From: Fragilariopsis cylindrus CCMP1102 | Lineage: Eukaryota > Bacillariophyta > Bacillariophyceae > Bacillariales > Bacillariaceae | Length of the DNA stretch: 58,781 nt | Assembly (NCBI GenBank): GCA_900095095.1 | Contig: FMBT01000179.1 | Coordinates: 1 to 58,781, forward strand | Direction: 5' to 3' | Shown here: positions 51,677 to 58,781 of the stretch, piece by piece | Layout of the letters: every line of letters starts with the position of its first letter | Position numbering within the stretch: position 1 is the stretch's first letter | Program-made: the position numbers and the translations under genes | The notes under the pieces: generated by a model | The model's database searches: none | What the model was told of the DNA's origin: nothing | The model's input: the letters and a program-made list of their open reading frames with translations, nothing else

Positions 51677-53834
51677 TTATTCTATTTTTCCATCGTTCTT
51701 AGCTTCCTTCCAACTAGATAGATCAACTCCTGATTCCATCGCTCCCATTCGCAAGCTGCCACCACTTATATCGCTTAAATTCTTGTTTCGTTTCCGATGG
51801 GTAATTTTCGTTGTCGTTTTGTTCTTGTTCTTCGTCTTTTTATCATTGCTTTTGTTGTTGCCGTCATCGTCACCGTCCCCGTCTAATAAGTGTGTCCTCC
51901 ATGCATCGTCGGGTAAGGCAGCAAGTCTTCGAGTGACAGGGCCCAAGAAAATTACCCAGAGGATACCCAGAACTGAAAATATTGCTTGAACGATCTCGTA
52001 TGGATCGCGACCAGGTGCGGTCGCGTCTCCATCGACACCACTCGGTGTTAACCATCCCAACAGCTTCATGACGAAACTAGCCGGCCAAGCTGTTGTTATA
52101 CAGTAGTAGTTAGAGGAAAACAATACAAAAAGATAGAAAGGATCGTGAGGAACAACAGCAAACAGAAACACAATTGGCGACGCACACACACACAGCAAAC
52201 ACACAAAAGAATGGAGAAGATAGATCGTTGGGAATTGTGGAACTTCTCTACTCACTTCCTCCAAGATTTGCCATGTGTTCAATAATGTCATATAAGAACC
52301 ACCAATTGCAGGGTCGACTCTACTGGCAAAAAATGTCATTTGCGCATTAAATTGCAATGAGTTGCATATTGCTTGACCTGCCGTAGATGCCATCACGGCA
52401 CCCCAAAACATCGGTGTATCGTGGGGTTGACCACTTTTTAATAGACGCAACATAAATATATCCAATAAAGGTATAAGCGTGACACGCCATTCATATGCTC
52501 GCATAAATTGTCGTAATGGAGCAGCGTGCCATATTTTTGATGCAGCTATTGGGACCAATATACCCAAAGGCAAAATAAGAGTCGGTGATAAAAGTGCTGT
52601 TGTCGATTTCGACAATCCATATTCGACTGCCTTTAAGAATTTAACGTTATCACTAAGAGCAACTGGTAATCGATAAGTAACTAGAACAACAAACAAGGAA
52701 CGTACGGCAGGCAATTTACTGACGGCCCATAATCGATGATATGTTTCTTTCAATCCAATTTGAGCCGCATCGAGCTCAGCGTCGTCGTCATCTTCTTCAT
52801 CAATAACGGATGAGACGCCAACGACATCACTGCTACTTTTTAGAGGAGTAAAGAAACTGCTCCTCCTGTTGCTATTGACATCGTTGTTTTTGGTGGAAGC
52901 GACAGCGGGTGCCTTTATTTCTCGTTTGAAGAGTGCTACGACTGCCGTGGTTAGTAACATAAAAGATCCCATAAATCTTAAAAAACCTTTAAGCTGACCA
53001 AACCCCGATCGGGATTTTTAGGTAATCTCAATAAAGGACGCCATAAGTTTCGCTCGATTCAACATCATTTAATGCTAAAAATCCAACGAATGATAAAAGT
53101 ATCCAATATTTTGTCCTATAGAATTACAAATCGGACCCCGGCCACGATTTTTCTTTGATAACATTGTCAATGCCCATCCATCAACGGCGATATCTTGTGT
53201 CGCCATTAGAAATATAAAACGAAGAAAAAGCCGTAACACCTCGAACGTCCATGGCAGCGACGCTATTTGCGGCGCCTTCAGCAATAGAACCAGCATTGCC
53301 TAATCCCAATTGCCGTTCGACAAAGTCTGATCCTCCAAGCATGATTAATCCTGCCAAAGTTTGGATTGGGATCAACCATGATTTTCGTCGTCCGAATCGT
53401 TTAAAAAAGCAAGAATCAACAATCGGAGCCCATAATAATTTTAGTGAAAATGGCCAACTACATAAGGCAAAAATTGCATTGGCATTGTAGGATGCCCGTG
53501 CCGCATCTGCCGCAACTGCTGAAGCTGATGTTGCAACGACGGTAACACCTGCTGATGCTGCAGTCACGGCTGCCGCGGCTGCCGTCATTTTTTGGATCTT
53601 TTCTTGTAATAAGAAAGGAATCGATGCACTTAAACCCATTGGTATTCCCTGTAAGGTGTACAAAACAACCAGTAACGCATAATTAAATTTATCGGACGGT
53701 TCTTCTACTTCCGACGGTGGTATTTTCCATTCTTGCTGTTGCGGATCTAATAATTCATTTTTGCCGCCAGAGATCTTTGCAACATTCGCGACTCCACCAG
53801 CTTTCTGGGCCATACTGAATGGTCGGCGTTTCAT
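51677..53834 (-). CDS. Acetyl-CoA transporter of the SLC33A1 (AT-1) family, 2 exons
   Basis: Multi-pass carrier that imports acetyl-CoA into the ER lumen in animals. Exons 52256-53834 and 51677-52089 (GTGAGT donor, AACAG acceptor). Family blocks in order: VVLYTLQGIPMGLSASIPFL, CSWPFSLKLLWAPIVDSCFF with FGRRKSWLIPIQ, ATQDIAVDGWALTMLS, ICNSIGQNIGYF, SLFVVLVTYRL, GGSYMTLLNT and, after the intron, TWPASFVMKLLGWLT. An Ala/Val-rich insertion (AAAAAVTAASAGVTVVATSA) lies in the first loop, and the C-terminal tail is Lys/Asp-rich and cytosolic. Single-base losses near 53218, 53090, 53043, 52990 and 52275 split it; the matches resume in another frame after each. The Met at 53834 is the first in frame. 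Confidence 0.88.
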
Positions 53835-54695
53835 TCTGCTTATCCCAAGTGGTTAGAACGAAGTAAGTATCTATTCGCAATTGCGTTAGCGCTAATAGAT
53901 ATGAATTAATATATTATTAATACGGCACAATGCACCGTTGATGATGTTGTTGCTATCAGTCATATCCACCCACACCCGAGTCGACGAGAAATCGATCATT
54001 AAATCTCGGATTCGCGCAATTTCACATGCTCGCGCTTACGCGTGCATTTTATCCATGTCTGAACGAAAGCGAGTCACAGTTTCGAAGTTCTCTGACGCAC
54101 ACAGTTCTACCGGTAATGAAAATAATAGAAGATATGCATGAAACAACAATAACAACAACCACAACAAGAGTCCGACGACGACTCGCTCACAGCTATATGG
54201 ATCTGAAATTTGCAGTACAAGCAACTTACTTTCATCTCCATCCTATTGCTCCGCTCCCTCCGTTTTGGAATCCTTAACTTACAGCATAGTACTATATGAA
54301 CTGAATAGGAAAAATCAAAGGATTCTTATTTCTGCTTGACTCTCGATCGCATCGGCAGCCGAGGAGGAGGCACAAGTTATTATATAACTCTATTCCATAT
54401 TCATTCATATTATATCGAACTTCGAAACTATTAGCATTACGAGTAAAGAAAATAAGTAACACGTGATGGCCTTACAAGATCAGTATTGTTTCTTATTCTG
54501 TTTGTTATTACTGCCTCAATAACATTACCGTACCACATCATTATTGCTCGGCATTCCAAATTCAAATTCAACAACAACCGCAACGTTCACGTTCACGTTT
54601 CTATTCATATCCACATTCACGTATCAATAATAATCACTTCTTGAGAAACAATATCAAGACGATGATGGTCCACAACCAAAATCGACATTAACAAC
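53835..54695. other. Divergent promoter region
   Basis: TTAGCGCTA at 53886-53894, 52 bases upstream of the SLC33A1-like start. A weak frame at 54026-54277 has no family resemblance. CGTTCACGTTCACGTTTC-type repeats near 54580. No gene seen. Confidence 0.55.
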
Positions 54696-57600
54696 ATGAC
54701 GCCGGTCGATAATGTTACTGCTGCAACTGCTGCTGTTACAAGTAGCGCAATAACTGCTTCCATCGTCGATTCTTCTCCCTTCAATTATTTCGAAAGTATG
54801 TTAAATCGATGTCGCCTACCGATAATATAGCTACTACAGCAACCAGCGACGATATAACTACTACTTCTACTAAGCAATCATCGGTATCGGCATCGGCTTC
54901 AACAGCATTCACGTGTGGACTATTCCTTGTAACGACGACGATGATATCGACATGGAAATGGAAATGGACGACACTGTAATAGTGGAAATCAATACACTCA
55001 TATTCCGTCCGATAATAAATAAAGAAGAAGAAAAAATGTACAATCGGCTATAATGCCAATCTATGCTGTTGCAATCGTCCCGTCATCTAAAAAAGTTGAC
55101 GTCAAGAATTTATCATATGAATTATCTCGTATAAAAATTAAGAAAACAAAGCAAATAAACGAAGAAGAAGAAATCATAATTATGACAACATCAATATAAT
55201 GACAATGATTTCTATACTTCTTATGACAAATGGGAGTTAGCACCATCTCATACAGTAGAAGAACTTTGTGGGTTTGTACCAGGAACGATTCCACCAATAT
55301 TGACTATACCAACAACAACGACGACGACGGAAGCGACGACGAAGACGATAAATGTACCATTCTCTACTATTGTAGATAGTTCTCTCCTAACGACAACGTC
55401 ATCATCAACGTCATCATCAACATCAAATTCAAAGATAACAACGAATGTTGGAAGTAATAATGACAAAAACATCGGTAATAATAACAATACGCTACTACTT
55501 TTAGGGGTGGTGGTAACATCAACTATCGTTGTTTAATCGATTCACGATTTTTGATTGGAAATGTGCTGGGAATTGATAGAACAACAACAACTAATGATAT
55601 TATCACTACTACAACAGCTACTTCACTATTATCAAATAAGAAGACAAATTCCAATAAGATCGCCAACATTGTTAGATTCGATAGGGTTGGAGGAATAATG
55701 GCAACGACGACGACTGAACCAAAAATAATAGACCAGCGCAACAAGTAACACCGGATGACATTGACTTGTACAATTATTACAGCACAAAAAAGAAACCATA
55801 TTTCCCTATCGGTCCACCAGATATTAATAATAATAATAATAATTTTGCCGAAGCAGCAACAAGATCAAGAGCCACATAGACCTACTCCTGTAACAACTAT
55901 AGGACGACTTCTATCTGTACGACAAATTGCGAAACAATTAGTATTTGCTGATTTAGCTCCACCAGATTATAACTATCAATATTGGTTGAAAAATAGGGAT
56001 AATAATAGTAACTATAACATTAGTAACGAGAATACATACTATAAAAGAATGCTACTGATGATGGCGGCGGTATGCCTGGTCCACCATGGCGGTCTGGTGA
56101 AGATGGTGAAGACATGCACGTCAAATTATTGTTGGTAAAACATTCTGTGAAAAATACGGTACTGAACGACTTAAAAAGGAATTAAAACCTGGACGATTAA
56201 TACTAATAAAAGGCGCTGCGAATGTTGATCCGATGCAAAAAAATGGTTGGAAGAATTCTGTTGGGAATTGGGCCACAAAACGAAGTTTAGATGTTATTGT
56301 TTCATCATTTGAAATTTTGAATGAAAATGAGAATGATGACGACGACGATGAGTATAACTTGTACGACAATAACGATAATAGAGAACAACAACAACAATCT
56401 AATTGGGAAAGTTTACTACCATGGGATAGAATGCATGATTATGAACGTAGAGCCCGTGCGGGGGGTTCGTTAAAGAATGATGTCATTGATACATCATTGT
56501 CGTTGCCATCTTCATCTCATAATGGTAACACCGATACAACTAATAGCGTCCTAACTTTGGATCGGTTCAACACGAATTTGCGAGATACACCACTGAAGGT
56601 AATGATTGTCGATACGGACGAATCGATTCAGTCCATGTCGGATCATATTCGTGAGTTATCATTGAAAATCGAAGAGAATAATAGTAACGGTGGCGGTGAC
56701 AGTTTCTCGTTGTTGAAGTACGTCGCGGGTATCGACTGTGAATGGCGTCCAACGGGTGCCTACGCAGAAGCTTCTTTAGATGGGCCGGATGACAATCCTG
56801 TGGCACTCCTTCAAATTTGTATTCCAGCTATCGATCAAGTTTATCTTGTCGATACGCATCGTACAATTAGAGCTAATCTCGCAGAGACTGAATCGTTGAC
56901 GTTAAATGAAGAGATTCTCTCCGAGACTATCGGTGCAATATTCGGTTCAGATGAAATAACGAAAGTTGGATACGGCGTCACAATTGATTTTAAACGACTA
57001 GCTGGAAGCTTTCCGCATATTCCTGCATTTCGTAACGTCCGGTCGGTTGTAGAACTTTCTACATTGGCTCAACGATTGCATCCATCATCATCATCACAGC
57101 ATTCGTTTGGTTCGCTACAACGTTTGACGAAGCTGGTACTCGGATACAAAATCTCTAAGGAAGAACAGTGTTCCAATTGGGAGGCTCGACCATTAACTCC
57201 TGATCAGGTTGAATATTCGACACTGGACTGTGCTCTACCACCGAGATTGCTAGATGAAATGGCAGAGGGATCTGGAACGGCGAAGATGAAAGAGATTCTT
57301 CCACTAGTAACAAGCTCATGGCGATTCCAAACCCTCAATGGTAGCGATCGTAAGGATGCGATTCGTCTATTGAAGGCAAAACGCGTGATTGGTAGTACTT
57401 TCGTCGTTTCACAAAGCTGGTTACAGGGCAAAAATGCCCCGGCACCAACCTCGGTACCAGAAGAGGGAGGAGGACCTTATACAGATAAGAATGGTATATT
57501 ACAAATGCCCGCTCATTTTGTTTCCTTTGGTGACGGTGGTGATGCTACGAATAAGGAAGCTAAATGGAAGAAAATGTTAGGCAAAAAGATAGGAAAATCC

Positions 57601-58331
57601 AAAAGCAAATGTATAGATCTCTTAGTTGATGACATCTTACCCGTTGGTGCCAGTCTCGAATACAATCCACGATCTGGCTATGTTGCGTTCCAAGATGGAT
57701 TGGCGCTATTTGTGAATCTGCCTGGCCTTAATCCATCTCGGAGAATGCCATATCCGAACGAATGGCTACAAGATGGTCAATTCTGACCTGGTATATTCGA
57801 AACAAGGATTGGGATGATGGAAGATCTGATACAGCAAAACTGTTGGGATTTAGTGTAGATACTACTATTGCTTCTACTACGACAGAACTAACTTCAACAA
57901 ATATTATACTATTCACTCGTGCTGGAAATGGAGAGTTTGTTTGTTGCGGAAAATGCACAGCATCAATACCTGATGACGATGATGACGAAGATGCAAAACT
58001 TGTTAAGCTTCATCTTCATTTGAATGATTGGGAGACAATGAAAAAATCGAATGATTTTGCTCAAATATTCGTAACACAGAAAAGTGTAGATAAAGTTTTA
58101 GATGATGTAAGTTCATTATTACAAGAGCGTCTTTCACTAATGGTGTTGGCTGGAAACATGATTGGCGCACTGAATATGGCGCTCGATGATGCAAAAAAGA
58201 ATCCAACTGATAGATCGATTACCGCCGGTGTATCATGTCTCCGTAAAATCTTAACTAGTAACAGTTCTGACGATCCATTGGTCCTTCGAGCATTAGAACT
58301 ACTTGACAAAAAAATTAGTCATCGTTATTGA
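54696..58331 (+). CDS. YbaK deacylase-like, OB-fold and DEDDy 3'-5' exonuclease fusion protein
   Basis: From MTPVDNVTAATAAV at 54696, an N-terminal domain reads IMPIYAVAIVPSSKKVDVKN, then SHTVEELCGFVPGTIPPI and a GGGNINYR block: the order of YbaK/ProX aminoacyl-tRNA deacylase domains. Next come VTTIGRLLSVRQIAKQLVFA, IVGKTFCEKYGTERL and LKPGRLILIKG, an OB-fold-like nucleic-acid-binding pattern. The long intact part from 56233 has AGIDCEWRP (DxE), VGYGVTIDFKRLAG and QVEYSTLDCALPPRLLDEM (YxxxD): a DEDDy exonuclease as in RNase D. A C-terminal domain (FVCCGKC) follows a one-base loss near 57781. Other losses lie near 54930, 55050, 55195, 55503, 55725, 55870 and 56080. One gene is inferred from continuity; two adjacent genes remain possible. 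Likely a tRNA or RNA quality-control role. Confidence 0.65.
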
Positions 58332-58601
58332 ATAGATTTAAAAAATAAAATAAACGACCAAAATTACCATTTACTTCAAACTTCTAGATATGTGGCAACA
58401 TGTCTTGAGATTTGACTATCATTTTGGGAGGTTTAAAGTAGAAGTAATTTCCAGTTATGAGGAGAGTTCTAAACGGTACTCGTATTCAATTAAACTACTG
58501 AATATTGAAGGAGAATGCAGTAGCAAACTAACTCGTACGAGTATGAAAGACACTACTGAAAATTGCAGGAGAGTGTAGTAGCAAATTAATTGATTAATTT
58601 T
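58332..58601. other. Convergent 3' region
   Basis: Two related short stretches (GAGAATGCAGTAGCAAACTA and GAGAGTGTAGTAGCAAATTA) at 58512 and 58570. No gene seen. Confidence 0.55.
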
Positions 58602-58781
58602 CTACGAAAGCATTTCTTTCACAAGATGAGACGCTCCATCGTATTCTCCGACGAGCCATAGAATATAGCGCACATCTACACCAATGGATCGTGAGTAGTC
58701 TTTGCTCCATTTAAATTCATTCATTAGTCCTTGCCTTTGGCGATCAAAATTAATAGCAACAAACTCTCCATCCGCATTCCA
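58602..58781 (-). CDS. 3' end of an unidentified gene
   Basis: Reading leftward from the window edge, an open frame of 59 codons (AINFDRQRQGLMNEFKWSKD, IGVDVRYILWLVGEYDGA) ends at the TAG at 58602-58604. Codon use and composition look coding and it is in phase with no internal stop. No family recognised; the rest lies outside. Confidence 0.55.
   Translation of the reverse strand, partial: WNADGEFVAINFDRQRQGLMNEFKWSKDYSRSIGVDVRYILWLVGEYDGASHLVKEMLS

Follow-up and report, generated by a model that had tools for sequence, protein, structure and literature searches.

The gene and its haplotype copies

The window considered here is the entire contig FMBT01000179.1 (58,781 nucleotides, C481 in our numbering) of the diatom Fragilariopsis cylindrus CCMP1102, and our genome searches covered the 67.9 Mb assembly with its 818 contigs. 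Close to the end of the window, on the forward strand, lies one gene that encodes a YbaK-like part, a conserved middle part with OB-like features and a DEDDy 3′-5′ exonuclease, in that order. A fusion of a YbaK-type deacylase, an OB fold and RNase D had been proposed for 54696..58331 in an original prediction made from the letters of the window. The peptides quoted there are all found on the forward strand and in the order given, spread over several frames (a three-frame reading). The frame of the window copy is itself broken into several, and the order of the three parts on one strand is borne out by a copy on contig C159, a stop-free single frame without introns from an ATG (window 54466) to a stop (58331), encoding 1288 amino acids. 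The proposed interval therefore ends correctly and starts 230 bases late, missing the start codon and a presequence. As regards the fusion in one protein, the YbaK-like part at the front, the conserved middle part and the DEDDy exonuclease at the back are upheld, and an OB fold is not established.

Contigs C159 and C510 carry the same DNA (99% over a 2222-base query for C159, 100% over its first 1714 bases for C510). The C510 copy is a single frame of 1127 amino acids, which departs from the shared sequence at window 57823 (L015 near 2215-2225), so that the predicted protein lacks most of the C-terminal domain. This departure inside the gene may represent either structural heterozygosity or a misassembly.

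When window 53310-57823 is aligned with both C159 and C510, 4514 columns have a base in both haplotypes; 47 columns with a gap in one haplotype were excluded from the count of losses. The haplotypes differ at 163 of these columns. At 17 of the 4514 columns no base is present in the window; 12 of these losses lie inside the gene, and 16 of the 17 fall on sites where the haplotypes differ, with an expected overlap of about 0.6 (a chance near 10^-22 under independence). In a second alignment covering this region, the seventeenth loss likewise falls where the haplotypes differ. Of the 147 differing sites that remain, the window agrees with C510 at 115 and with C159 at 32. The simplest reading of these alignments is that C481 would be a blend of two haplotypes, with a consensus that dropped bases at heterozygous sites. 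Since the C159 and C510 frames are open and the losses sit at heterozygous sites, the breaks in the window gene are probably an assembly artefact. Introns as a cause of the breaks were considered and rejected, because both haplotypes are open at the same sites and single bases are missing from the window at these positions. As the contig appears to blend haplotypes and to lose bases at heterozygous sites, further genes with broken frames in the window may be explained by the same type of artefact.

Over the shared coding part, the ratio of nonsynonymous to synonymous differences per site (pN/pS, uncorrected and from one haplotype pair) is 0.33. A pseudogene was rejected on the basis of this value and of the intact C159 copy. 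The many frame breaks in the window copy and the departure of C510 inside the gene might suggest that two or three adjacent genes, a pseudogene or a misassembly have been taken for one gene. The uninterrupted C159 frame across all parts, the coincidence of the losses with differing sites, the pN/pS value and a collinear paralogue on another contig (C679, see below) all argue against this explanation, which we consider very improbable.

Domains of the predicted protein

The window frame scores 50.3 bits with the exonuclease family PF01612 (cut-off 23.6) and the two full proteins 47.8 and 48.9; 17 matches to this family are listed in the genome, haplotype copies included. Residues D209, E211, D293, Y369 and D373 (window frame) are invariant in 27 of 27 aligned sequences, i.e. 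the window and 26 sequences chosen among 80 bacterial loci. We regard the predicted identity as a DEDDy exonuclease as certain. Searching the PDB with a profile of three paralogues (see below) gives a Mut-7 homolog (1.9e-15), EXD2 (2.6e-11) and WRN (1.6e-10), with RNase D (1.3e-5) ranking behind the Mut-7, EXD2, WRN and diDNase chains. The RNase D model TIGR01388 yields 20.7 bits, compared to an equivalog cut-off of 298.95. Hence, the DxE / D / YxxxD set is intact as proposed, and the name RNase D appears too narrow, given these best solved relatives and the TIGR01388 score far below cut-off. A Mut7-C domain behind the exonuclease is a feature of Mut-7/EXD3; no Pfam match to Mut7-C was found in residues 940-1288 at E-values up to 10.

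The assignment of the N-terminal domain to the YbaK (INS) family is a remote one. With PF04073, the window frame scores 13.0 bits and the C159 domain 15.8, and the window gene is not among the matches listed in a genome-wide search with this model. A YbaK profile of 16 sequences (14 bacterial, from an E. coli chromosome and from plasmids, those on plasmids being chosen among matches, and 2 from this genome) gives the window domain 23.3 bits, compared to a maximum of 3.2 among 400 shuffles. Taken together as a profile, the window and C679 parts match YbaK by hhalign with a score of 35.0 (E 9.5e-5, 50 columns; maximum of 18.4 among 100 column shuffles). The GXXXP loop of the INS superfamily reads GTIPP in the window gene and GETLP in C679, and the G...P string occurs in 15 of the 16 references. 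The predicted YbaK-type domain is thus retained in so far as its profile score lies above shuffles and the loop is kept, at a level below the Pfam cut-off.

A lysine occupies the catalytic column in 16 of 16 YbaK references. At this column, as inferred from sequence alone, the window protein shows D, D, R, D and R in five alignments and never K; by eye, N178 of EINTLIF occupies the lysine place, and strand region DIDMEMEMDDTVIVEINTLIFRPII contains no lysine in either allele. The corresponding residues of C679 are N, N, K, K and a gap, and its candidate lysine lies in EIKVFY. According to the consulted excerpts of two papers, every INS member characterised so far relies on this lysine, together with GXXXP, to hold aminoacyl-tRNA (PMC11286415), and a Leishmania YbaK that lacks the lysine was considered unlikely to be functional (PMC3532385). 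Because no lysine is present where the conserved one is expected, the activity as a deacylase that had been proposed for this part is doubtful.

The INS part may nevertheless still deacylate, with the lysine replaced or located elsewhere, and the exonuclease may act on the freed 3′ end. Such a bifunctional proofreader would be in accordance with the loop in both the window gene and C679, with the C679 lysine at the right column in two of five alignments, and with T. brucei MCP3, whose lysine was missed by direct sequence alignment and found only structurally (PMC11286415, in the excerpt consulted). Considering that none of the five alignments places a lysine in the window protein, that neither allele has one in the strand region, that all references do, and that the lysine-less Leishmania protein was judged as stated above, we regard this explanation as unlikely.

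Further YbaK domains occur in the same genome (L001, L002, L003). On C83 and C493, one of them lies ahead of what we take, from the way it reads, to be a prolyl-tRNA synthetase, the C493 copy being split into frames. Another, on C98, retains the lysine, and a search of viral contigs with it gave no match.

The middle part shares 26% identity with that of C679 (45.4 bits, compared to a best of 24.3 in 300 shuffles). It resembles the OB strand pattern of another gene in this genome, presumably lysyl-tRNA-synthetase-like by our own reading. With an OB profile (PF01336, class II synthetase type), 3 of 1000 shuffles outscore the window protein, which makes this a weak test, and hhalign gives a weak match between the middle part and OB (E 0.013, probability 3.3%, 24 columns). 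These comparisons are suggestive of an OB label. With weak shuffle tests and no Pfam or PDB match (see below), the OB fold named in the original prediction could not be established.

The protein begins with a hydrophobic stretch, with a peak 10-residue Kyte-Doolittle mean of 3.37 in the window protein and 2.52 in C679. It is followed by CSA-FQIQ in the window protein and TTS-FFTP in C679, with F at the putative +1 position, and, in both proteins, by 20 residues that include neither D nor E. In diatoms, F at +1 behind the signal peptide marks plastid proteins, and the ASAFAP-type rule for plastid precursors names F, W, Y or L at +1 (PMC4329603, as far as the consulted excerpt goes). This data is suggestive of both proteins being addressed to the plastid. 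The plastid-type presequence had not been noticed in the original prediction.

Paralogues in the same genome

The gene on C679 encodes a protein of 782 amino acids after one predicted intron and ends shortly past the exonuclease. It aligns with residues 208-995 of the window protein at 22% over 833 columns (E 4e-43 in a single comparison), the KPYFPI motif included. The exonuclease alone contributes 122 bits, and all that precedes it 46.6 bits (E 1.6e-9; best of 29.3 in 300 shuffles). C679 carries CGF-PGETLPPI and LLLLG at places that match the YbaK-like part of the window gene; a PDB search with the C679 YbaK part gave nothing meaningful. As C679 shares the middle part and the exonuclease in the same order, it supports the view that these two parts may have been joined for long.

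The gene on C770 (L010 487-3235) combines ankyrin repeats, the same exonuclease and the C-terminal domain of the window gene (25% over 520 columns, E 3e-29). A PDB search with the C-terminal alignment gave nothing meaningful. C679 and C770 have predicted introns that are offset by one codon and share their phase, and the window gene has no intron there. Among 22 exonuclease loci of the genome with 359 frames, the N-terminal profiles match only the window-gene copies and C679; these loci carry flanks of about 1.5 kb and genome searches were scored by exon, so that distant or divergent N-terminal parts could escape.

In C770, the exonuclease is accompanied by ankyrin repeats instead, so this family of nucleases has no fixed tie to tRNA. 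The protein may be a general plastid RNA/DNA exonuclease of the EXD2/Mut-7 type, with YbaK-like and OB-like parts that provide generic binding or a scaffold and have no tie to tRNA. The best profile matches (Mut-7 homolog, EXD2, WRN) point the same way, as does the conservation of the YbaK-like part, which is the lowest of all parts when the window gene is compared to C679. However, the two varying YbaK pieces have pN/pS values of 0.25 and 0.17 (4 nonsynonymous and 5 synonymous changes in total), close to the OB-like part (0.16) and the exonuclease (0.17), although numbers are low (per region, from 0 to 10 changes of either kind) and some of the linkers, whose values are 1.01, 0.36, 0.30 and 0.25, are nearly as low. 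A third YbaK piece (residues 256-300) has zero changes at both kinds of sites and is hence uninformative; the presequence has a value of 0.42 and the C-terminal part of 0.03. A general exonuclease is in our view a possible, if somewhat doubtful, explanation.

Coordinates and neighbouring genes

Table 1. Features of the fusion gene in the window (positions of the 58,781-nucleotide contig; frames are those of the window copy).
Feature	Position	Strand	Remarks
Whole gene	54466..58331	+	C159 copy: one frame without introns; window copy: 12 losses of a single base each
Presequence: hydrophobic segment, then YCSA-FQIQ... with R and S	54466..54562	+	putative plastid-type bipartite signal; window frame broken
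YbaK/INS-like domain with low-complexity inserts	54774..55565	+	boundaries by eye; profile match about 55080-55300
First-strand region DDTVIVEINTLIFRP, expected site of the family lysine	54967..55011	+	no lysine in either allele
SHTVEELCGFVPGTIPPI (YbaK-like peptide)	frame 55186-55536	+	
GXXXP loop (GTIPP) of the INS superfamily	55282..55296	+	kept
RLLSVRQIAKQLVFADLAPP (peptide quoted for the OB-like part)	frame 55749-56138	+	
KPYFPI linker motif	55793..55810	+	common to C679
Conserved OB-like middle part with Asn-rich insert	55890..56325	+	VTTIGRLLSVRQ...LVFADLAPP ... MHVQIIVG ... GRLILIKG ... SFEILNE
LKPGRLILIKG and DxE / D / YxxxD set	frame 56110-57786	+	
DEDDy 3′-5′ exonuclease	56719..57270	+	
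D and E (DCE)	D 56734, E 56740	+	DEDDy residues
D (VGYGVxIDF)	D 56986	+	DEDDy residue
Y and D (YSTLD)	Y 57214, D 57226	+	DEDDy residues
C-terminal domain	57625..58085	+	no assigned family; common to C770, absent from C679; end estimated

Upstream of the gene, at 51677-53852 on the reverse strand, lies a membrane-transporter-like gene (LLVVLYTLQGIPMGLSASIPFLL) that is split into frames and that we take to resemble acetyl-CoA transporters. Downstream, at 58600-58781 on the reverse strand (L014 5324-5860), lies a gene whose sequence resembles the end of a serine peptidase (GGNSGSPVMNADGEFVAINFD), presumably S46-like.

Related sequences and described systems

The exonuclease alignment of the three paralogues was used to find 136 loci for examination, 56 viral ones and the best 80 of 491 bacterial ones. 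Viral exonuclease frames are mostly about 650 amino acids long, and we take them to be family A DNA polymerases; bacterial ones mostly have 205-240 amino acids. The YbaK profile has no match at E-values up to 1 in the 6619 frames of the 136 loci, and since it also misses the divergent C679 part, a divergent YbaK part in these loci could escape. A search of viral and bacterial genome contigs with the window frame found no close relatives, and plasmids hold no near match to window 53000-58781. In the titles and abstract openings of open-access literature, with subscription papers mostly outside the search, no fusion of this layout was found described, including in papers naming both YbaK and exonuclease.

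The INS/YbaK trans-editing proteins (YbaK, ProXp-ala, YeaK, T. brucei MCP3) are alike in core profile and GXXXP loop. In contrast, the YbaK-like part of the window gene has no lysine at the catalytic position and forms one protein with an OB-like part and an exonuclease, whereas the described members, as far as the consulted excerpts go, either stand alone, in some cases with a further domain at one end, or lie within prolyl-tRNA synthetase. The DEDDy group of Mut-7 (EXD3), EXD2 and WRN shares the fold family and all catalytic residues; the window protein adds the N-terminal YbaK-like and OB-like parts and has no Mut7-C match. RNase D is alike in its DEDDy domain, with the window protein far below the TIGR01388 cut-off. 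Stand-alone Bacteroidota 3′-5′ exonucleases of about 200 amino acids show, in those matches that are full-length, 25-33% identity over most of the exonuclease; the YbaK-like part is present in the window gene, and none was matched in the 136 bacterial and viral loci. OB folds bind the CCA end and can even deacylate it, and T. brucei MCP1 and yeast Arc1p are alike in idea, with an OB part acting on tRNA 3′ ends (PMC12021450, in the excerpt consulted). This likeness is by description, and the motif in the window resembles class II synthetase OB folds weakly.

Interpretation

Based on this dataset, we hypothesize that the gene encodes a plastid 3′-5′ exonuclease that is aimed at tRNA-like 3′ ends by a reader derived from an INS domain, and we assign a rough probability of 0.38 to this function. 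The plastid is suggested as the site by the presequence, tRNA-like 3′ ends as the target by the company of domains, and reading rather than hydrolysis by the lost lysine. Following this model, the nuclear gene would be expressed as one large protein and imported into the plastid, where the INS-like and OB-like parts may hold a tRNA, or an RNA that resembles one, by its acceptor arm and 3′ CCA end; the DEDDy domain may then remove nucleotides from the held end. The INS part of the window gene has probably lost hydrolysis and would serve as a reader, while in C679, with its candidate lysine in EIKVFY, deacylation may persist. Plastid tRNAs or transcripts with wrong 3′ ends would thereby be trimmed or destroyed.

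A number of observations weigh against this hypothesis. The C159 domain, at the 15.8 bits given above, misses the PF04073 gathering cut-off of 25.5 bits, and a YbaK match is absent from the Pfam result for the full protein. On its own, the C679 part obtains -0.3 bits with the YbaK profile, a score that lies among the shuffles, and has no Pfam YbaK family match; compared directly to the YbaK-like part of the window gene, it reaches 27.3 bits, with a best of 26.2 in 300 shuffles, and taken alone its assignment would be marginal. Similarly, the OB part of C679 scores -0.6 with the OB profile, among shuffles, Pfam does not recognise an OB domain, and a PDB search with the OB-like alignment gave nothing meaningful. 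The nearest relatives of the exonuclease act on varied RNA and DNA, and tRNA as a substrate would therefore be a guess from the neighbouring domains.

A more specific form of the hypothesis is that a proofreading domain which has lost its lysine and kept its loop would present plastid tRNA 3′ ends to the exonuclease on the same chain, and that the sister protein would couple deacylation and trimming. We consider it improbable in this specific form; if true, a reader together with a sister deacylase-trimmer would represent a tRNA 3′-end surveillance of complex plastids for which we found no counterpart.

Research usually treats editing domains and nucleases that degrade tRNA as two distinct layers of quality control. 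With a protein that joins both layers, the question of their coupling would become approachable through one enzyme. An editing-related domain and an exonuclease in one plastid-addressed protein would be an unfamiliar form of RNA quality control, and would bring a further component into the poorly known tRNA metabolism of secondary plastids of the red lineage.

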